Source: Sediminispirochaeta smaragdinae DSM 11293 (GTDB lineage Bacteria > Spirochaetota > Spirochaetia > DSM-16054 > Sediminispirochaetaceae). From it: DNA of 64,000 nucleotides. Positions 329 to 10,567 of the stretch are shown piece after piece (position 1 is the first letter of the stretch; each line of letters starts with the position of its first letter). The stretch is taken from the NCBI RefSeq assembly GCF_000143985.1, contig NC_014364.1, positions 3,286,001 through 3,350,000 on the forward strand, given 5' to 3'. A model generated the notes under the pieces. That model was not told the DNA's origin, did no database searches, and was given only the letters and a program-made list of their open reading frames with translations. A program made the position numbers and the translations under genes.

Positions 329-458
329 AGGTACTCCTGTTGCTTGTTTTGTCGAAAGGGAATTCGACAGGTTATGGTATAATATTTGATTTATACTATA
401 TAGACGTAATATTATTGTCAAGATAGAGGACATGCTATAGCGGCAACGAAAAATCAGC

Positions 459-2048
459 TTATTTCGGTATTGTAGTAATAGCGAGTTGAGCTTCGCCTGT
501 TCGAGGGGCGTCAGCTGAATCACTTTTTCGTAAACCTCTTGCCTGGGCAACAACATCTTTTACGCTATCGAAAATCATATACTGTTCTCCCTCGATAAAG
601 GTAGGGCGAACCGCCGGTATCGGGGGTGTACCAGAAAAAGCCGTAACAATAAGTCGTTCGACCCCAAGAGGTGGAACAACATCGAAGGAAGACGGATACC
701 GCACAACACGATTGACTTTATCAATTCCAATGAAAAAGCCTTCCTCAAGAAGTACTTTTTCACCGGTAGCAAGGATATAAGTAATTTGAAGTGTACACGG
801 TTGGTTTACCCGTATATACAGGTTAAGTTTTTCGCCCTCGATGTAGACCTGGGCATCCTCAGACTTCCCTTTGCTGGTCCATATATCAAGATGAATCCCT
901 CCGTCGGTCATGGCACCTTCTTCAAATTCCATGAGATCCTGGAGCGCCTGTTCATGATTTTGGGGTTCAAGCCCATAGTTCCGCGGAGCAGAATTACGGG
1001 GAAAGGTTGCGGAGACGCTTCCGACAACATTGGCGGGTTGCTGAGACAAGCGTACAAGAGTAAACAGCTCTACGTCATCGGTATGAATCCAGTAAGAGCC
1101 CTGAACGATGTACTGCGTATTCCCTTTCGGCAATTTTTCATTCAAAAGACCGGAAAGTTTGACAGCAACATACTGACCAAAGGGACTGGAAAAATCGGTC
1201 TGCTGGTACGTAAAAGCGGGAGAAAGAAAGTTCCCGGAAGAAAGCCCTTGTTTTTTCAATAAGATAACGATTTTCTCAAGAGCTTCATCAAACGAATCCG
1301 AAGCAAGACCCATGAGCGTATCGATTTTCTGCCGAAGCTCCTGCTCAAGGGCAGTTACATCGTCCCAATTCTTCATTGAGGAAGTATCTAAACCTGCAAA
1401 GAAAGCAGGAAGTGTCGAAGGTGACAGGGTATGGACGAGTGAATATGATTCATAAAGCTTGTCGAATTCCGGAAGACACAAAAGATAGGCCTCTGCTGCT
1501 GCGGCATTATCTCCGCGCCGTTCCTTCTCGCCGGCATCTTTGACCGATAGGAGTATCCGATTCGAAGAGGAGCGGGCCAAATCCGAAAACTCACTTATCA
1601 GTGTCGCTCGCTTTACATATGCTAAGGCATAGGAGATTCCCTCATATTCTTTAACAAGAAATGCGACATTCGGCAACTGAAGCGAAGCCGTACTTTTCGT
1701 AACACTGGAAACATAGGAGCTACTATGCAGAGCTGAAGCGGATTGCCGACTGGTGACCTCACTTGTAATCCTTACCCTGATTTTGCGAACCAAATCATCC
1801 ATAGCCTGGGTCTTTGCCTGCTCAAGAGCATCGGAACCAAGAGTCTTTGATTCCCCCATTCCAAAACCAGTAAGAATATCTTCACCGAACGGACTACGTA
1901 CGCCATAGGAGGAAACCCATAGGGGAACTCCAGCCTCTTGGAAAATGCTATCATGCAATGGCATCCCCGACTGAGAAAACAACAGCATGTTACTCAATAA
2001 GAAGATCAATAATAGCGTGAGCTTTGAGAAGCATATAACCTTTTTCAC
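459..2048 (-). CDS. secreted LPP20-like/DUF4384 protein
   Basis: The 529-residue protein starts at a GTG (2048) and has a signal peptide without a lipobox (MKKVICFSKLTLLLIFLLSN...). Residues ~70-160 resemble the LPP20-type domain: a helix rich in Ala/Gln (LEQAKTQAMDDLVRKI), then a strand-rich part ending in SYALAYVKR. Residues ~385-485 look like DUF4384: HLDIWTSKGK, GEKLNLYIRVNQPC, and a late V..LIVTAFS strand. DUF4384 proteins often sit next to bacterial caspase-like genes; one lies 4.6 kb upstream here, beyond an IS21 relic. It probably acts in the periplasm or at the cell surface. The function is unknown. Confidence 0.7.
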   Translation of the reverse strand: MKKVICFSKLTLLLIFLLSNMLLFSQSGMPLHDSIFQEAGVPLWVSSYGVRSPFGEDILTGFGMGESKTLGSDALEQAKTQAMDDLVRKIRVRITSEVTSRQSASALHSSSYVSSVTKSTASLQLPNVAFLVKEYEGISYALAYVKRATLISEFSDLARSSSNRILLSVKDAGEKERRGDNAAAAEAYLLCLPEFDKLYESYSLVHTLSPSTLPAFFAGLDTSSMKNWDDVTALEQELRQKIDTLMGLASDSFDEALEKIVILLKKQGLSSGNFLSPAFTYQQTDFSSPFGQYVAVKLSGLLNEKLPKGNTQYIVQGSYWIHTDDVELFTLVRLSQQPANVVGSVSATFPRNSAPRNYGLEPQNHEQALQDLMEFEEGAMTDGGIHLDIWTSKGKSEDAQVYIEGEKLNLYIRVNQPCTLQITYILATGEKVLLEEGFFIGIDKVNRVVRYPSSFDVVPPLGVERLIVTAFSGTPPIPAVRPTFIEGEQYMIFDSVKDVVAQARGLRKSDSADAPRTGEAQLAITTIPK

Positions 2049-2076
2049 AATCGAATTCCAATAATCGTTTTATAGC

Positions 2077-2082
2077 ATTATA
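2077..2082 (-). promoter_or_regulatory. -10 box (TATAAT) for the DUF4384 gene
   Basis: A perfect TATAAT reads towards the GTG at 2048, about 28 bases away, so the gene seems to have its own promoter outside the IS21 relic. The -35 is weak; TTTTGT 17 bases upstream is the best candidate. Confidence 0.5.
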
Positions 2083-2134
2083 CCATGAAATCATGAGAGA
2101 CAAAACGAGAAGATAGGGCCGATCCTGACAAATA

Positions 2135-2156
2135 TATGTCGCTCAAAAGCGACATA
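2135..2156. promoter_or_regulatory. perfect 9-bp dyad upstream of the DUF4384 promoter
   Basis: TATGTCGCT and AGCGACATA form a perfect inverted repeat with a four-base CAAA loop. It sits about 55 bases upstream of the -10 box and 38 bases outside the proposed IS21 left end. It could be an operator or an upstream terminator; there is no T-run on either side, so an operator is slightly favoured. Confidence 0.35.
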
Positions 2157-2299
2157 AAAGAAATGCTCTTTTTCATGCGCGAACGCTTTGAGGTGTCAAC
2201 ACCGGAATGAAATTGCAGAGTCCGGCTTGAAAAAAAGGGCGGTACCGCCTTGTAATGGTTGTAGCCAAACAATCATAAAAACAAGGAGTACGCCCTACA

Positions 2300-3042
2300 A
2301 TGCTGGAGTTACTGATGCATGAAGCACAGATGTTGAAACGACAGGGCAAGAAGATCAAAGAAATCGCTGAATCCCTCGGGAAAAGTGAACGCATGGTTCA
2401 CTACTATCTGACGGAGCCCTCACGACCACGTAAAAAACGGAACTATCCGAGCAAGCTCGACCCATTCAAACCCTACATTGATACTATACTCGAGGATGAT
2501 CCCTCGTTCAATCGGGAAGTCCTGCTCCGTCAATTACGAAAGCAAGAATACGCAGGTAGCATGACGATCCTCAGGGACTATGCTGCAAAGAAAGCGGCCG
2601 AGTGTAACCGGAAAGCGGTTATCCGCTTTGAAACAGAACCAGGGTTCCAGGCGCAGGTTGACTGGAAGGAATTAGGGAACCACCGGGTCGATGGGAGATT
2701 GAAGAAGCTCTACGCATTTGTAATGGTCTTCGGTTATTCCCGCAAGCCATTTGTCATACACACTACCAGCATGGACCAGGCGACAGTCCTGATGTGCCAT
2801 GTTCTTGCGTTTCAGTACTTTGGCGGTGTACCGCAGGAAATCCTGTACGACAATATGAAAACTGCATTTATCTACTCAACGACAGATGGGAAGTGGGTAC
2901 CGAACAAGCATCTCCTTTCACTGGCCCGGCATTATGGATTTACTCCGCGGCGCTGTCAGGTACGGCGACCACAGACCAAAGGCAAGGTGGAACGGTTTAT
3001 TCACTTTTACGAGAACAATTTCTGGATTGAGCACAAAACCTT
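2300..3042 (+). pseudogene. istA: IstA transposase, N-terminal half
   Basis: The reading frame from ATG 2300 encodes about 248 recognisable residues of an IS21 transposase, against roughly 400-500 in intact proteins. A helix-turn-helix lies at residues 18-37 (KIKEIAESLGKSERMVHYYL). The DDE catalytic residues are all present: Asp121 in QVDWKELG, Asp184 in ILYDNMK and Glu231 in GKVERF. Homology stops after FWIEHKTF, where the frame runs into istB sequence in the wrong phase and ends at 3169. The C-terminal domain is therefore lost and the product should be inactive. Confidence 0.85.
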
Positions 3043-3576
3043 CTCTCCTGGCCAAAGGGAGGACTTACTCAGAAGCAGTTCAACGAGCTGTCCAATCTGG
3101 CGTTTATCGAGCGCAGGGAAAACATCATTCTCCTCGGACCAAGCGGTCTGGGAAAGACTCACCTCATGACGGCTCTGGGACAAAAAGCCTGCCTAAATGG
3201 CTACACCGCATACTTTATCAGCTGTCTGGACCTATTGGAACGATTACAGCGGTCACGGGACCAGGGACGGCTAAAGAACAAGCTGACATGGTTCGGGAAA
3301 CCTCATGTTCTGCTGATAGATGAAGTCGGTTACGAAAACCTCAATTCAGAGCAAGCTGCATTGTTTTTCCAGCTTATTAATACCCGGTATGAACGTGGAT
3401 CTATCATCCTCACTTCAAATAAAACTTTTGGCAAGTGGGGTGAGATTATGGCTGATGATGCAGTCGCCACTGCAACTCTGGACAGGCTCTTGCATCATTC
3501 CCATGTGGTGAGCCTTAAAGGCGATTCGTATCGTATGAAAGACAGAATGAAAGATGAAGAGAAGATCAAATGCTAG
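3043..3576 (+). pseudogene. istB: IstB transposition ATPase, N-terminus lost
   Basis: This frame, +2 relative to istA, encodes the AAA+ ATPase helper of IS21 elements. It begins without a start codon at about GLTQKQFNELSNLAFIE and then shows Walker A GPSGLGKT (about 3136-3159), Walker B LLIDEVGY and the sensor SNKTFGKWGE. About 75 N-terminal residues seen in normal IstB are absent. The first in-frame ATG (3166) lies after Walker A, so no working ATPase can be made from it. The C-terminus to TAG 3576 is intact. Confidence 0.85.
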
Positions 3577-3646
3577 AAGAAAAAAGTGCCTACCATGGAG
3601 ATTCATCACCTTGGGACATCGTAATTGACGGTTACAAAACAAATTA

Positions 3647-4900
3647 TTACTGAAGAGTGACTAATACCAATATCAAACCGCTCTCTCCAGAGAACGGCTC
3701 CATGGCTTTACCAAGAATAGCCCCCTGTGCTCTGGAGAAATCTGTTACCTTCATGGCACTTCCTGATATTGAAGATGTCGTAAGGAGATCCCCCACCTCG
3801 ATATTCCCGTTGGAAGTATCCACATAGCAATAGACCCGACCGGACAGGGCGACCGGCTTGTCGTTCGTTCCGTCTTCCCTGGTGCCGATAACCATCCCCG
3901 GCTGAAGGCCACCCGCTCCCGAGATGATTCCCGCCACCTTTTTATCGTAGGCTTCCGAGCTTACTTTCAGGTTCCCCGGATTGTCGGGATCGATGACCAC
4001 GACCATTCCCGGATCTATAGCCCGTTTGCCGGACAGTTCAAAGACCTCGGCGTAATCGTGGACTTGAGTGCCATCGACGGAAATTTTACCGCCGTTAGTG
4101 TCCGCTTCAATTGTTACCGAGTTGGAAGAACTGCCATTGGAATCTTCGACCCGCATCCAACCGCCTCCAGAGTTATCTGAAAGCATAGTTATTGTGGTAG
4201 TACCTGAAGAATTGCTAAGGGCAAGAGTTCCATTACCACTACCTCCTGCCACGGCACTACCCGCATAAAGGCCGGACCCTGCGATAACATCATCATCTGC
4301 AATAATATCCTGCTCCGCTACTATATTACCAGTATCGTAATAGCTTGAATTCGGTGATCCGGCAAGTATATTACCGTTTGCTTCTATATCATCACCTGCA
4401 CTAATATCATCACCTGCACTAATATCATCACCTGCACTAATATCACCACCTGCACTAATATCACCACCTGCACTAATATCATCATCCGCCAAGACATCAT
4501 CCTCTGAGACAAGATCGCCTGCTCCAGAAGAAGTAGACGGAGATCCGGCTTTTATAGCTCCAGAGGCAGTCAAATTTCCTGTTGCAGTTATGTTTCCGCT
4601 TGCGTCACTGGCCATGAACCCACCGGATACATCGGACAGGGAACTGTAATCACTGGCCAAATTTGTGCTGTCTATGTTTCCGTTTACAAGAGAGAAAAGA
4701 GCGTCAAAGTTACCATTCACATCCGTTGAACTGATGGTTGTTCCTGAAGAAAAAGTCGTCTGGCTGCTGCTGATATCTCCCGAAGTCAAAAGCAGAAGAA
4801 AAGGCATACTAATAATAACGGCAACAAATATATGAAGTCCCTTTAGCCACTTCTTTTGAATGTCCTTTTTTCCCCTGCAATTTTTTCCCACCATATTCAT
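3647..4900 (-). CDS. repeat-rich surface protein with fibre-like C-terminal domain
   Basis: A 417-residue protein with a long positively charged N-terminus and one hydrophobic segment (residues ~22-42) that looks like a signal sequence or anchor. The middle is low in complexity and made of short turns such as DISAG-D, EANGNIL and VIAGSGLYAGS, which suggests a beta-helical stalk. Five exact or near-exact 6-residue repeats come from an 18-bp DNA repeat. Residues ~300-417 form a compact domain (PGMVVVIDPDNPGNL, VALSGRVYCYVD, GDLLTTSSISG, ILGKAMEPF) like the C-terminal cap of fibre or spike proteins. The start has AGGAG seven bases upstream. It is the last gene of the caspase operon, 22 bases after the lipoprotein gene. 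Confidence 0.65.
   Translation of the reverse strand: MNMVGKNCRGKKDIQKKWLKGLHIFVAVIISMPFLLLLTSGDISSSQTTFSSGTTISSTDVNGNFDALFSLVNGNIDSTNLASDYSSLSDVSGGFMASDASGNITATGNLTASGAIKAGSPSTSSGAGDLVSEDDVLADDDISAGGDISAGGDISAGDDISAGDDISAGDDIEANGNILAGSPNSSYYDTGNIVAEQDIIADDDVIAGSGLYAGSAVAGGSGNGTLALSNSSGTTTITMLSDNSGGGWMRVEDSNGSSSNSVTIEADTNGGKISVDGTQVHDYAEVFELSGKRAIDPGMVVVIDPDNPGNLKVSSEAYDKKVAGIISGAGGLQPGMVIGTREDGTNDKPVALSGRVYCYVDTSNGNIEVGDLLTTSSISGSAMKVTDFSRAQGAILGKAMEPFSGESGLILVLVTLQ
4391..4480 (-). repeat. 18-bp tandem repeat, five copies
   Basis: The unit ATCACCTGCACTAATATC on the plus strand is repeated five times head to tail, with one substitution (T to C) at the start of two units. It encodes D-I-S-A-G-D/G in frame. 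Because 18 is a multiple of three, gain or loss of units changes only the stalk length of the surface protein. Confidence 0.95.
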
Positions 4901-4922
4901 TTTATTCTCCTAATTCTTATTT

Positions 4923-6074
4923 CTAATCACCCCAGATACATTCATCCCAAAGGGAGGAATCCCATTGACCAACGGAAACCGAACTACTGCCCGTAATTGT
5001 GAAAATAAACGGATTTTCATCTGAATCATTGTTTGATATCAAAACCGAAGCGGTTTTTGAACCTTCACCTGACGGACTGAATGCTATGACAAACGTGGTA
5101 CTGCTTCCCGAGGAAACAGAAGACGCTGGCTGTGTCGTTACACTAAACTCGGAAGAATCAGTTCCGGAAATTGCGACAAGAGGACTGCCCGTAAGCTCCA
5201 AATTCTCATCACCTGTGTTTTCTATTGTAAATATTACCGAAGTTGAGGTTCCCACATCGGTACTGACGAATCCATAAATATCACTTGAGGCAATAATAGT
5301 TGTTCCTTGTCGTATATTTATTTCAGCATAAAGGCTTTCCTGGATAGAAAAACTATATATGCTGCTCCAGATCCCTACCGTCCCCTCCTCATTTACCCCT
5401 CTTACCCGCCAGTAACAGGTATTTCCGTATGCCAGCGCATCCGTATCCGGTATCTGATAGCCCGATTCCACCGTGGTTCTTATATCGCTTTCATCCAGTC
5501 CCGCTTCACTTAAAGCAAATTCAACTTCATAACTTGCAGCACCGGCAGTATCATCCCAATCAAGATACGGCGTGGTATCGTCAAGAGAATCCCCACCTGC
5601 CGGGCTACAATTCAATTCATTACCAGTATTAATTGAAAAACTCCGAATTTCCGACCACCCATCACTCCACTTCGTTCCGTCATAAGCCCTGGCCCTCCAG
5701 TAGTAGGTCTCAAAGTCGAGGAGCTTTCCCGTAGGAACAATACAGCTATTTGACGGATAATCTTCCTTATCCAGAATCATTGTTCCCGTAAAGTCGGAGC
5801 TTGTGTTTATCTGGATATGGTACGCAGTTATTTTATCAGGATTAAATTGATATACCACCAGCGTAGGAATAACGGTGTCAAGAGTTGTATCATTTTCCGG
5901 CCTTAAAAGGCTAATTTCATCAACATCATCATAGCTCCCGATACCATCACCATCACTATCTACCGATTCATAGCCAACATACTCATCCCCCTCTGGATCC
6001 ACCGGGTTGAGAGGGTTTCGGCATGTAGAAAGAAGCAGCAAAAAACATGAAACGGCTATAAGCGCCCTTTTCAT
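4923..6074 (-). CDS. lipoprotein with fibronectin-III-like and anchor-type beta domains
   Basis: The 383-residue product has a lipobox at LSTC with Cys18 as the acylated residue, then an Asp-rich stretch DSDGDGIGSYDD that resembles a calcium-binding thrombospondin-3 loop. Two FN3-like modules follow at ~70-155 and ~160-245, each with a 'YYWRARAYDG' or 'CYWRVRGVNEEG' strand. Residues ~255-365 match the choice-of-anchor/Hydin-like type (PASSVSSGSSTTFVIAFSP). The protein probably sits on the outer face of a membrane as an adhesive or scaffold protein. It overlaps the upstream gene by four bases (ATGA), so translation is coupled. No catalytic motif is visible. Confidence 0.7.
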   Translation of the reverse strand: MKRALIAVSCFLLLLSTCRNPLNPVDPEGDEYVGYESVDSDGDGIGSYDDVDEISLLRPENDTTLDTVIPTLVVYQFNPDKITAYHIQINTSSDFTGTMILDKEDYPSNSCIVPTGKLLDFETYYWRARAYDGTKWSDGWSEIRSFSINTGNELNCSPAGGDSLDDTTPYLDWDDTAGAASYEVEFALSEAGLDESDIRTTVESGYQIPDTDALAYGNTCYWRVRGVNEEGTVGIWSSIYSFSIQESLYAEINIRQGTTIIASSDIYGFVSTDVGTSTSVIFTIENTGDENLELTGSPLVAISGTDSSEFSVTTQPASSVSSGSSTTFVIAFSPSGEGSKTASVLISNNDSDENPFIFTITGSSSVSVGQWDSSLWDECIWGD

Positions 6075-6616
6075 TCTAGTGCTCCTTCAAGGCGCTGGAT
6101 CTCTCCTTCTATCGTGGTACGCTGAACCTGCAAATCTTTTTGTGAAGGGATCTTTGCAAAGAGCACTATTGAAGTAATAGCCCCAACACCGGCAAGCCCC
6201 AAACCGGTATAACTCATCAGATCGTAACGTTCATAGGTATCCCGGTACTCCGTTGCATCTTCACTTATCGTGGCATCCATATAATCATCGTAAGCATCAT
6301 TACCAAGGTCATGGAGGTAAAAATAGGAACCGGCACATAAGGCCGTTACAGCGACCATTACACCACTCCAGACGGCCCGGTGCCGTCGGCTTGCTTTTAC
6401 CTCGTTCAAATCAACAATGATTTGATCACGTTTTTTATATGCCTCATCGAGCTGGTTTTGTTGTATCCCCCTGTAATCGATCATAGTCTCTATAAGCAAC
6501 GGGGTAGATCCGACCTGGGCTATGGTAACGGCTGCCTCCAGATCTTTTGGCAAATTCTGAGCCGAAAGATCCACTATCGTTATCAATAAAAAAGCTGCAA
6601 TCACGCCGTTTTTCAT
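6071..6616 (-). CDS. membrane protein with coiled-coil segments, unknown function
   Basis: I do not recognise a family. The 181-residue protein has a signal peptide (MKNGVIAAFLLITIVDLSAQ), a charged helical stretch at ~55-75 (LDEAYKKRDQIIVDLNEVK), two hydrophobic segments (~83-103 and ~137-157) and a final coiled-coil-like tail (TTIEGEIQRLEGALE). The region between the hydrophobic segments is rich in Asp and Tyr. It lies 8 bases after the caspase lipoprotein gene and overlaps the next lipoprotein gene by four bases. It therefore belongs to the same operon and may link the lipoproteins to the inner membrane. Confidence 0.55.
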   Translation of the reverse strand: MKNGVIAAFLLITIVDLSAQNLPKDLEAAVTIAQVGSTPLLIETMIDYRGIQQNQLDEAYKKRDQIIVDLNEVKASRRHRAVWSGVMVAVTALCAGSYFYLHDLGNDAYDDYMDATISEDATEYRDTYERYDLMSYTGLGLAGVGAITSIVLFAKIPSQKDLQVQRTTIEGEIQRLEGALE

Positions 6617-6624
6617 AACATCTC

Positions 6625-9600
6625 CTATTGCACTTGATAAAATAGGTAACTTTCCGTAGAATAACGCTTGCTTGTTGGATGCTGTTTGCTACCGGTCAGT
6701 TCAATCACCTTGTTGTACACAAAACTATCCAGTTCGTTGATATCCACATAACCGTCCTGATTCGCATCGGCCCGTGATTTGGCCAAAGCATCTTCTACCG
6801 CAAGGGTAAAGGCCCCACCATGCCAGTTAGCATTTTCATAGGCATACTCGTTGCCCCGAGCAGCACTCATGACCGTAAAACCCGTCGCCGAACTCAGGCG
6901 GTCGACCACCTCGGTAATATTCTCATTTCCCCGCCTGCCGGTAACTCCACCGCTCTGACAGGAATCGAGCATGACCAGCACCTTTTTTGCCTGTACCGAA
7001 GCGATAAGATCATCTTCAAAATCACTCTGCTTAAGACCGTTTGCAGAGGGATTATTCATATCTCCATCATAGCCAAGCAGATAGTAGCGACCACGACTGT
7101 CCGTTATGCCGTGACCCGCAAAAAAAAGAACAACCATATCATCAACCCGGGCATCGGAAAGAAAGGTATTTATTCCATCCTTAATGTTAGCCCTCGTAGC
7201 ATTTCCATCAAGGAGCGTTTTAATATGGACCTGATCGTAAATCTCAGCATGTTCCTGGGTTCCAAAGACCGCAGCAATCTTTTGTGCATCTCCAGCCGCA
7301 TAGTTCAGATTCTGGGAGGATAGTTCATAGTCACTTACCCCCACCGAAAGCACATAAAGAGAGGGAGGGTTTTGAATTCCCTGGGAATAAAGGTGTAGCA
7401 GCTGGGTATCCGAGGCTACATTTTTTGTATTATAGACGGTAACACTAACCTCGTTTTCTCCTTTTTTAAGAACCAGGGGATAGGTTCCGCGGTACCTCTC
7501 GTGCTGAGCATCTGCAACCCTCAGCCCCCGGGCACCACTTCCTTCCAATGAAGCGCCATTGACCCGTATATCGACCGAAGCTATACCGTATGTTCGGTCG
7601 ACAGCCAGAATCTCCATAGAGGTACGGTTGTAAACATTGTCATTGTTTGATGGTGAAATGACTTCAAGAATGGGTCGGGAATTAACAAATGCACGTTCGG
7701 CATAGGTATCGGAAGTGCCATCATCTATGGAAAAATCTTTCCTGTTCTCTACAAGGAAGGTATGACTGTCCGGAACACGAAAATCCACTACTTGGGACTT
7801 TTCCACCCACCCGTATTTTCCGTAGATTTCCACCTTATACCACTCATCAAGCTCTCCAACAGTATCGAGAACAGCCCCTTCGGAGAGCACGGCAATCTGC
7901 GAGGCATTCTCCGCAGCCCCGCTTTTTACCACAAGGTTCTGCGAGGCAGAAACCTTTTTATTGATGGAAAGAACGGGAGATCCGACACTTCTGCCGACTG
8001 GCACATCCAGTTGTTTGTCGATAAGAGTCCCAAAATGGCGATCTTCTACAACTATACGCAAAGGCAGCGTATCGCCGCTAAAAGAGCGCTTCACACCGAT
8101 AGTTGCATTCAATCCTGCAGTTGCTCCACTGACAAGCATGTTTAACCGAAGGCTATTTTTAAAAAGGTCAATTGCCGTATCATCCGATTCCAAACCTATC
8201 GTTACATTGGACATATCGAAAATCGAATTATTTTTGACAATGACATCAAAATCGACTCCTTCACCAACCTGAATCATCCCATCCCTGTTCCCGGACGAAC
8301 TTGCACTATCGCCATCACTGATTGTGTAAGTGTACAGCACCTCTGGCAGAGAAAAAGCTTTAAGAGCGATAAGCTTTTGAACCTGCTCTTCCGAAAAACT
8401 GATTCCCGCACTATAGAGGGCCTCTACCACCTGTCGGGAAATATAATGCGATTCCGCAACGTGAAGAATATTCTCGGCATCGAAAGGAATCCGATTTTCC
8501 AGGAAAACCAACTCCAGATTTTCCTGGGTAATCGCCTTTTTTTGAGCAAAATAGACCAAATCGGAGGCGGTATAGGGTATCTTCTCATATTTAATTAGCT
8601 TGTCAATGACCGTTCGATCAATCAGGTCTGTTTCCACATAAGGTTTTATTTCATCGATAGTCAAATCAGACGATCGAAGAATGACCGCCCGACTCAAATC
8701 ATTTATTGTGAAATAACCATTATCTACCATGGATTTGACCGTTGAAGCATCAAGCTCCGTCAGATGATCAACAATAAATTCTCTGTCAGGTACGGGAACC
8801 GTTATCTTTCCACTACAATTCTCAGGAAGATAATTATTCTCCTCGGTAAACGATACCGAAACAGAAAGGTCTTTTCCGATATCACGATAATCCAACGAAG
8901 AAAGAAAACAGTTTCTCACAACCTTATTTCCCGGTGAGATTTTTCCAAAATAGAGCTTTTGCTGGATATTCTTCGTTCCTGTAATGGAAAGATCCGCCAC
9001 CAAATCAAACAGATCTCCTTTTCCCTCGTTGGTAACACTTACCTGTATTTCCGTTCGATCCAAATAGTTTGAAACCTGTTCGAAGCTTAACGAGGCTTTC
9101 GGGAAAGGAGGTAGTTCAGGGTGCCCCTGCTGGCAAGCATCACGATCCTCAAGCAATGCAATAATCAGTGAGGAACCGTACTGAGCATAGCCATCAGTTA
9201 CATTAATTCCCATATGTTTTTCAAAACATGCGAGAGGAGTTGGGTAATCTTCCCCAGCTGCAAGACAGTCCGCTCCCCGTTCAAGAAGATATCGAGACAA
9301 CTCTTCATGATCACGAGCAATCGCCCAAAACAGGGGTGTTGTCCCACTTGCAATGCTGTTGATATCTGCACCTTGATCGACCAAGAGTTTCGCAATCGCC
9401 GTATTTCCCTTATAGGCCGCCCAATGCAAAGGAGTAAAACCATCCATACGACGCGCGTTTACCGCAGCACCAGAGTCTAATAAGAATTTGACAAGATCTA
9501 CTTTTTCCATCCATACCGCATGATGTAAAAAGGACGAACCATACTCGTCCTTCCAGCCGAGATCAACCCTCCCGTCACGAACAAATTCCTCAAAGAGAGT

Positions 9601-9780
9601 ATCCATATTCATCGACAGCATTCGAAGATAATCGTCCTGGGAGGAAAATGCCAACGCTTTTCCAACAGTGTCTTGGTCTTGACGTTTAGCACCATCACTG
9701 CTTTGACATGAAAAAAACAGAAGAATAATGACAAAGACTGTTAAAAAAAAGAACTTTTGACTATGATAAAAACGAAGCAT
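6625..9780 (-). CDS. ankyrin-repeat, SH3-containing caspase-like lipoprotein
   Basis: A 1051-residue modular protein. The N-terminus is a lipoprotein signal ending FFSC (Cys25). Three ankyrin repeats follow at ~80-185 (TPLHWAAYKGN, TPLFWAIARDH), then a CARDB-like beta domain (~230-335), a helical part (~345-485), a second beta domain (~490-600), an SH3-like domain (~625-675, EWYKVEIYGKYGWVEKSQV) and an Ig-like domain (~705-800). The C-terminal ~240 residues are a C14 caspase domain with the catalytic pair His890 (FFAGHG) and Cys941 (MLDSCQSGG). Residues 1005-1016 (DANQDGYVDINE) form a perfect 12-residue EF-hand loop, suggesting calcium control. It leads a four-gene operon. The substrate is unknown; metacaspase relatives cut after Arg or Lys. 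Confidence 0.88.
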   Translation of the reverse strand: MLRFYHSQKFFFLTVFVIILLFFSCQSSDGAKRQDQDTVGKALAFSSQDDYLRMLSMNMDTLFEEFVRDGRVDLGWKDEYGSSFLHHAVWMEKVDLVKFLLDSGAAVNARRMDGFTPLHWAAYKGNTAIAKLLVDQGADINSIASGTTPLFWAIARDHEELSRYLLERGADCLAAGEDYPTPLACFEKHMGINVTDGYAQYGSSLIIALLEDRDACQQGHPELPPFPKASLSFEQVSNYLDRTEIQVSVTNEGKGDLFDLVADLSITGTKNIQQKLYFGKISPGNKVVRNCFLSSLDYRDIGKDLSVSVSFTEENNYLPENCSGKITVPVPDREFIVDHLTELDASTVKSMVDNGYFTINDLSRAVILRSSDLTIDEIKPYVETDLIDRTVIDKLIKYEKIPYTASDLVYFAQKKAITQENLELVFLENRIPFDAENILHVAESHYISRQVVEALYSAGISFSEEQVQKLIALKAFSLPEVLYTYTISDGDSASSSGNRDGMIQVGEGVDFDVIVKNNSIFDMSNVTIGLESDDTAIDLFKNSLRLNMLVSGATAGLNATIGVKRSFSGDTLPLRIVVEDRHFGTLIDKQLDVPVGRSVGSPVLSINKKVSASQNLVVKSGAAENASQIAVLSEGAVLDTVGELDEWYKVEIYGKYGWVEKSQVVDFRVPDSHTFLVENRKDFSIDDGTSDTYAERAFVNSRPILEVISPSNNDNVYNRTSMEILAVDRTYGIASVDIRVNGASLEGSGARGLRVADAQHERYRGTYPLVLKKGENEVSVTVYNTKNVASDTQLLHLYSQGIQNPPSLYVLSVGVSDYELSSQNLNYAAGDAQKIAAVFGTQEHAEIYDQVHIKTLLDGNATRANIKDGINTFLSDARVDDMVVLFFAGHGITDSRGRYYLLGYDGDMNNPSANGLKQSDFEDDLIASVQAKKVLVMLDSCQSGGVTGRRGNENITEVVDRLSSATGFTVMSAARGNEYAYENANWHGGAFTLAVEDALAKSRADANQDGYVDINELDSFVYNKVIELTGSKQHPTSKRYSTESYLFYQVQ

Positions 9781-9812
9781 ACCATTTTCGACCTAAATAT
9801 TTAAATTAAATT

Positions 9813-9818
9813 ATTATA
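9813..9818 (-). promoter_or_regulatory. -10 box (TATAAT) for the caspase operon
   Basis: TATAAT reads towards the ATG at 9780, about 32 bases away. TTTCGT 16 bases upstream is a poor -35. The surrounding DNA is very A+T-rich. This is the only good promoter element found in front of the four-gene operon. Confidence 0.45.
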
Positions 9819-10150
9819 GCATAATTATTAGCATACGAAAGTTTTTAGGAAGACAGTATCCCTTCTCTAAGCGAGAATTTTCGTTTCCCTACCCCAAAAA
9901 TTGAAACAGGAACATCATGGTGGCCAAAATGACAAATCGACATTTCCTCGGTATGAAATGTGGCCGTCGGCACTTTCTGAAATAACCGAATGATATCAAG
10001 ACTTAATAAAAGGCTATGGAAAAACAAGTTATTTTCTCAAACTATATGACTTTTTTCTCATTTCTTGCGAGTTGTTACACAGCAGCAAGGCTTTTGAGAC
10101 TTTTTCTTCGTTTTTCTTATTCTTACGTATTTTCCAGCATATTTTGAAAA
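9819..10150. other. intergenic region without a recognised gene
   Basis: About 330 bases between the caspase operon promoter and the end of the suf-like cluster. One minus-strand open frame of 60 codons (9845-10027) has no ribosome binding site and no recognisable features. No RNA gene, strong hairpin or long repeat was seen. Position 10071-10110 is T-rich in short runs but has no stem that would make a convincing terminator. Confidence 0.5.
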
Positions 10151-10567
10151 TTATTGCAGTAATGAATGAACCAAGACGGATAATCCTCTCACATCCTTTT
10201 GTGAAATCAAAAACTCTGCATCGGGATGAATATGTAAATCCTTCTGAATAGCATACAACAGCATGACTTTTTTAGCCGATGCCGAGGAAACATTGTCACA
10301 AGGCACAGCCTTATCGAATTTCTTAATCATCTTTGGATCCAGTTTTATACTCCGAGCCAAACTCAGTTCCGCCAATTCTTGTAGCTGATCTTCCATGCAG
10401 TCTTCACTCAGGAGAAATTTTGCCAAGATATACTTGCGCAAATGCTCATAAATGAATTTCAAAGAAGGGTCTGACTCGTTTCTGATGATTTCCGCCTCGT
10501 TTTCGGCCTTTGCATGAGCCATAGACAACAGATGAATTACAAGGTTTTTTCGTTCTTCGATTGTCAC
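10151..10567 (-). CDS. helical protein of unknown function in a SufS-SufE cluster
   Basis: A 138-residue, Lys/Glu/Leu-rich, entirely helical-looking cytoplasmic protein with no signal peptide. I do not recognise the family. The last third (KKVMLLYAIQKDLHIHPDAE...SVLVHSLL) faintly resembles acyl-carrier-like proteins, but no serine attachment motif is visible. Two cysteines are present, at about 58 and 90. It lies 6 bases downstream of the SufE-like gene and is the last gene of the four-gene cluster. It may be an adaptor or carrier for sulfur transfer, which is an inference from position only. Confidence 0.5.
   Translation of the reverse strand: MTIEERKNLVIHLLSMAHAKAENEAEIIRNESDPSLKFIYEHLRKYILAKFLLSEDCMEDQLQELAELSLARSIKLDPKMIKKFDKAVPCDNVSSASAKKVMLLYAIQKDLHIHPDAEFLISQKDVRGLSVLVHSLLQ

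Follow-up and report, generated by a model that had tools for sequence, protein, structure and literature searches.

A caspase-like lipoprotein and its envelope partners suggest a recurring, putatively extracytoplasmic protease module in spirochaetes

The association of three protein families, TM-hairpin proteins, NPxDP lipoproteins and LPP20 proteins, with caspases is well supported by our sequence comparisons. Because these partners travel with caspases in many spirochaetes, they look like components of a real and hitherto undescribed extracytoplasmic protease module. Our starting point is a gene cluster of Sediminispirochaeta smaragdinae DSM 11293, whose genome forms a single contig of 4,653,970 bases and from which we analysed a stretch of 64,000 nucleotides (bases 3286001-3350000, hereafter the window; Table 1). 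We read the module as an exported caspase-like protease, a TM-hairpin protein, an NPxDP lipoprotein with an exchangeable binding domain and an LPP20/DUF4384 protein. This reading, including the working that we infer for it, seems to us about as probable as its opposite. In the version found in the window the caspase is a separate ankyrin-SH3 lipoprotein and the LPP20 gene lies at the other end of the cluster, split off by an insertion sequence relic.

Table 1. Positions of the genes, domains and repeats discussed in the text, counted from the first base of the window.
Feature	Position	Strand	Basis or remarks
Low-GC island with the whole gene set	423-10162		GC and comparison with same-genus genome G247
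LPP20/DUF4384 exported protein gene	459-2048	minus	529 aa ORF
Decayed IS21-family element	about 2069-3640 (istA + istB fragment 2300-3576)	plus	ORFs and domain matches
Repeat-stalk (fibre-like) exported protein gene (gene 4)	3647-4900	minus	417 aa ORF
Widespread C-terminal module of stalk, aa 282-417	3650-4057	minus	Relatives in unrelated phyla, up to 57% identical
18-base tandem repeat, 5.5 copies at 97%	4386-4484	minus	Encodes stalk hexapeptides
NPxDP lipoprotein gene (gene 3)	4923-6074	minus	383 aa ORF; FN3/Ig-like and ASH/choice-of-anchor D domains
Anchor motif CRNPLNPVDPEGDEYVGY, from Cys18	5970-6023	minus	Common to lipoproteins downstream of hairpin genes elsewhere
TM-hairpin envelope protein gene (gene 2)	6071-6616	minus	181 aa ORF; hairpin region aa 52-180
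Ankyrin-SH3-Ig-caspase gene (gene 1)	6625-9780	minus	1051 aa ORF; predicted exported lipoprotein
Caspase (C14) domain, about aa 805-1051	6628-7368	minus	Peptidase_C14 8e-18
EF-hand loop DANQDGYVDINEL, aa 1005-1017	6730-6768	minus	Full PROSITE PS00018 pattern, after catalytic Cys
Bacterial SH3 domain, aa 616-662	7795-7935	minus	SH3_3 5e-6
Ankyrin repeats, about aa 55-185	9226-9618	minus	Profile match Ank 7e-22
Signal sequence, lipobox FFS-C25	9706-9780	minus	Hydrophobic stretch aa 10-28; Cys aligned in L072

The ORF list agrees with an earlier note on this DNA, which had described four tightly packed minus-strand genes, in the lengths of genes 1 to 4 and in the gaps between them (in order 8, -4 and 22 bases; the 4-base overlap of genes 2 and 3 reads ATGA). 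All four genes of that set are present, but a fifth member, the LPP20/DUF4384 gene beyond the decayed IS21 element, had been overlooked. The ankyrin, SH3 and caspase domains ascribed to gene 1 are borne out by profile matches, as is the description of gene 3 as an FN3/anchor-domain lipoprotein (matches to Ig_Rha78A_N, ASH and choice-of-anchor D). Gene 2, for which no named family was matched in profile searches, is likewise taken here for a membrane protein, but the term TM-hairpin protein suits it better than the coiled-coil description proposed before. In the IS21 relic, istA is followed by an istB without its first about 108 residues, apparently the outcome of one internal deletion.

The cluster occupies an island of 9.74 kb with a GC content of 0.452 (0.44-0.47 for its individual genes) against 0.49-0.52 in the flanks. 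In the same-genus genome both flanks are 97% identical and the island is replaced by 442 unrelated bases (L068/L069, G247:C22:33979-34420), which could be left over from another insertion sequence; their presence at the same position in the sister genome hints at a hotspot of insertion. The absence from the sister genome and the low GC content suggest that the cluster is an accessory and probably acquired unit, and we consider it probably a horizontally acquired, partly rearranged copy of the recurring spirochaetal module. No second copy of the exact four-gene set was found, either with the caspase and hairpin proteins among 247 Spirochaetota or with the caspase, lipoprotein, stalk and LPP20 proteins among 41 relatives, so that a conserved order of all four genes, as considered in the earlier note, is not seen in any other genome searched. 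Searches of PHROGs and PADLOC produced weak or domain-level matches only. A caspase-gasdermin defence system was considered and rejected, as no gasdermin family match was found among the partner proteins.

The caspase domain of gene 1 scores 65.4 bits against its C14 profile (curated cut-off 21.4) and carries a complete set of putative catalytic residues, with the dyad His890 (7111-7113) and Cys941 (6958-6960) and the acidic S1-type positions Asp831 and Asp939. Among 19 aligned relatives residues 831, 890 and 939 are invariant and residue 941 is nearly so (Ser in L059). The dyad is likewise intact in the orthologue L072 (see below) and in all 12 of the fused caspases inspected. The predicted model of residues 689-1051 has a mean pLDDT of 88.5, its closest solved structures being 3bij and MALT1, and a profile search also retrieves metacaspases of trypanosomes, yeast and plants. 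The EF-hand loop, whose equivalent in L072 is DSNKDGFVDINEL, is present in only 20 of the 115 related caspases and lies in a different place from the Ca2+ site of TbMCA2. Arg/Lys specificity is a property of metacaspases, and Ca2+ generally activates them (PMC4357240). With this precedent, the dyad, the acidic residues and the EF-hand loop make Ca2+-dependent cleavage after Arg/Lys a reasonable prediction, and gene 1 probably encodes a protease of this kind.

The lipobox of gene 1 departs from the E. coli consensus, and signal sequences were judged throughout by hydropathy and motif rules rather than by a trained predictor. The signal and lipobox Cys25 reported earlier are present; L072 has a signal in the corresponding place, and Cys25 aligns with a Cys in L072 despite only 12% identity in the signal region. 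Most WD40-caspase relatives in spirochaetes and other phyla have signal-like N-termini under a simple hydropathy rule, and a lipoprotein-like start with a VSC lipobox is also seen in this genome's second caspase (L071 7917-8777, 286 aa). Taken together these observations give good support to the export of gene 1: the caspase is very probably exported and probably lipid-anchored. The extracytoplasmic placing of gene 1 and its neighbours in the earlier note thus very probably holds, the neighbours being envelope proteins, while the view that bacterial caspases are cytoplasmic, which it gave as the usual one, was too strong in view of the close relatives, of the second caspase and of the literature, in which exported metacaspases and their possible extracellular role were discussed as early as 2012 (PMC3501461). 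Export of bacterial caspases in itself is therefore already known and not new.

Besides its ankyrin, SH3 and caspase domains, gene 1 displays a weak Big_7 match and, at residues 471-665, a partial match below the cut-off to TIGR03900, a long serine-peptidase family. A search of public genomes with a 5-row caspase alignment yielded a single full-length orthologue, L072 from a Spirochaetaceae MAG (55% identity), in which C25, H890, C941 and the EF-hand loop are all conserved. Identity between the two proteins peaks in the caspase domain, at 72%. Module partners are absent from the immediate neighbourhood of L072, and plasmids hold domain-level relatives of the gene 1 caspase only. Elsewhere in spirochaetes, three loci have an exported WD40-caspase gene with a distinct exported ankyrin gene beside it (L047 7425-8744, L049 12228-13370, L048 8977-9612), a split version of the ankyrin-caspase fusion of gene 1. 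Nothing relevant on spirochaetal ankyrin-caspase lipoproteins or caspase-PEGA-lipoproteins was found in the open-access literature, which is weak evidence of novelty.

The TM-hairpin family provides a link to other caspases. A hairpin model built without the window sequence retrieves gene 2 at E 9e-28 as the sole match in the test set, and 52 of 395 Spirochaetia genomes contain members of the family. The MAG of L072 encodes larger proteins whose C-terminal TM hairpin is related to gene 2. A lipoprotein follows each of them almost without a gap, and a caspase with a signal peptide is among the larger proteins. Across 51 sampled hairpin ORFs we observed a caspase domain in 14, CsgG in 12, PEGA in 15 and trypsin in one; the last (L208 3071-5230, ORF assignment by eye) has a trypsin-type protease domain in the position of the caspase. 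In most of the fused caspase-hairpin ORFs inspected the caspase directly follows the signal-like stretch. The sole hairpin gene found in the genome of the window adjoins one of its only two caspases. The fused caspases are mostly of the DACRDNP type, a C14 subgroup different from that of gene 1, and we interpret this as an indication that caspases and hairpins were associated repeatedly rather than inherited as one operon. The many hairpin proteins with CsgG-like or other domains and without a protease imply that the pair of hairpin protein and lipoprotein is not specific to caspases. Loci L199-L258 hold a large spirochaetal set of such pairs without caspases, in which CsgG-like/PEGA/hairpin proteins precede NPxDP lipoproteins and of which we found no description.

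A lipoprotein of the C..NPxD type begins at most 30 bases downstream of 21 of 53 hairpin ORFs, against one of 361 other ORFs at the same loci (Fisher 6e-20), a contrast to be read with the facts that the motif had been noticed on six loci before counting and that all hairpin loci stem from searches seeded with gene 2. A lipoprotein model constructed without the window sequence ranks gene 3 first (E 1e-5). The anchor is the main part that the downstream lipoproteins have in common, with variable domains behind it: among 30 of them we found Ig-like (8), FGE-sulfatase (6), Lcl_C (5) and fn3 (4) domains, as well as RCC1, Kelch, LRR and LamG. Swapping of domains behind a constant NPxDP anchor is the pattern that would be expected of binding proteins.

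The gene beyond the IS21 relic encodes a protein with an LPP20 match and a weak DUF4384 match. Over 490 aa it shares 40% identity (E 1e-118) with the product of a gene in the MAG of L072, which lies 3 bp upstream of the signal-caspase-hairpin gene, the latter being followed by an NPxDP lipoprotein. Full-length homologues precede caspase-hairpin genes in two further genomes (identities across the three are 40, 33 and 31%). Among 395 genomes there are 16 other full-length LPP20 homologues; the caspase is next or next but one in five of the 13 loci with enough downstream sequence to be assessed, contig breaks in MAGs hiding some neighbourhoods. Several genomes of family f69 have a solitary LPP20 gene with no caspase. 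A related smaller LPP20-like gene follows exported WD40-caspases in L048 and L062, one of which belongs to the window's own family. Within the window the LPP20 gene is not adjacent to the caspase, since the hairpin, lipoprotein and stalk genes and the IS21 relic intervene. The LPP20 homologues, the hairpin fusions and the adjacency of the lipoprotein nevertheless combine into a recurring order of LPP20/DUF4384, caspase, hairpin and NPxDP lipoprotein.

The stalk protein of gene 4 does not share in this recurrence. It has only a sub-threshold Peptidase_G2 match (6e-4), its C-terminal module reaches up to 57% identity in Runella and occurs also in Streptomyces and others, and no stalk relatives were found next to other modules. 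Phages gave no match and IMG/VR a single weak N-terminal match to a viral protein. The 18-base repeat within the gene is likely a length-variable locus. We regard the stalk as probably an accessory fibre outside the recurring set. The notion of the earlier note that the partners act as a unit with the caspase accordingly finds support, as an association, for the hairpin protein and the NPxDP/FN3 lipoprotein, which are caspase-linked elsewhere by fusion and adjacency, and extends to the LPP20 protein that it did not list; it finds no support for the stalk, and L072 is not flanked by the partners.

It is possible to sketch how such a module might operate. The lipid-anchored caspase would be delivered outside the cytoplasm, activated there by binding of Ca2+ and docked by its ankyrin, SH3 and Ig domains, and would cut after Arg/Lys. 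The NPxDP lipoprotein may sense a ligand or surface, or may itself be the substrate, and the hairpin protein would hold both together in a membrane. Going further, spirochaetes might possess a modular extracytoplasmic recognition-protease system with a constant anchor, exchangeable binding domains and coupling to an exported caspase through the TM hairpin, of which the window displays a version rebuilt with a separate ankyrin-SH3-caspase lipoprotein. We offer this last step, as distinct from the working sketched before it, as a tentative conjecture that is rather unlikely to hold.

Alternatively, the hairpin/NPxDP pairs and LPP20 proteins might organise or maintain the envelope as a structural scaffold, in which the caspase fold binds and does not cut. 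Such a role would accommodate the many loci in which CsgG-like or other non-protease domains fill the position of the caspase and the solitary LPP20 genes; it is less easily reconciled with the intact His-Cys dyads and with the superior conservation of the caspase domain between gene 1 and L072, and we consider it rather unlikely. There is less to be said for an assembly of unrelated accessory genes gathered on one island. None of the other genomes searched has the full set, and the stalk resembles an add-on, but the same families are fused or adjacent in independent genomes, which renders mere neighbourhood highly improbable.

The location on an island and the absence from the sister genome would also suit accessory defence genes, and PADLOC caspase and ankyrin models do match, as expected if the caspase were triggered by infection or stress and killed the cell, as has been proposed for other bacterial caspases. 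However, these are domain-level matches only, a look through the island revealed no defence genes, and the small hairpin protein shows no family relation to gasdermins. Moreover, all five cluster proteins have export-type N-termini, so that the protease would not meet cytoplasmic triggers; we judge a self-destruction or anti-phage module improbable. A surface caspase and a fibre could instead act on neighbouring cells or polymers, as a contact-dependent weapon or an aid to predation. The fibre-like stalk within the cluster, the FGE-, RCC1-, LamG- and CBM-type domains on the lipoproteins and the fratricidal role suggested for exported metacaspases (PMC3501461) are in line with this idea, which is nonetheless very improbable given that we saw neither a secretion apparatus nor an immunity gene nor a toxin domain in the island and that the stalk is not conserved with the module.

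The role of bacterial caspase homologues is an old question that has mostly been discussed in terms of intracellular cell death. Under our preferred reading as a recurring protease module, several spirochaete lineages place caspases outside the cytoplasm, with the same small group of envelope proteins as neighbours or fusion partners. These proteins are thereby named as candidate substrates or partners, and the role of exported caspases becomes directly testable in a culturable host. If true, the proposed recognition-protease system would be an outside-the-cell counterpart of receptor-caspase pairs.

Among known systems, the bacterial orthocaspases and metacaspases (Peptidase C14; GSU0716 = 3bij, MaOC1) resemble gene 1 in the p20 fold, the His-Cys dyad, the acidic S1-type residues and the possession of repeat-type accessory domains. 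Gene 1 differs from them by its export signal and lipobox, its scaffold of ankyrin, SH3 and Ig domains and its envelope partner genes. The MALT1 paracaspase likewise joins a caspase to an Ig domain and matches the fold of the gene 1 model, but differs in domain order and context, being a eukaryotic, cytosolic signalling protein. The exported WD40-Ig-caspases of spirochaetes, proteobacteria and Nitrospirota have a signal-like N-terminus and the same C-terminal Ig-caspase unit (about 27-39% identity), with a WD40 propeller where gene 1 has ankyrin and SH3 domains; a few of them have a separate exported ankyrin or LPP20/DUF4384-like gene next door (L047, L049, L048, L062). The caspase-FGE-sulfatase and caspase-DUF4384 proteins described earlier (PMC3501461, PMC8283722) have the same domain partners, FGE-sulfatase and DUF4384, but in fused form, whereas the spirochaete loci split these domains among a caspase-hairpin protein, a lipoprotein and an LPP20 protein.
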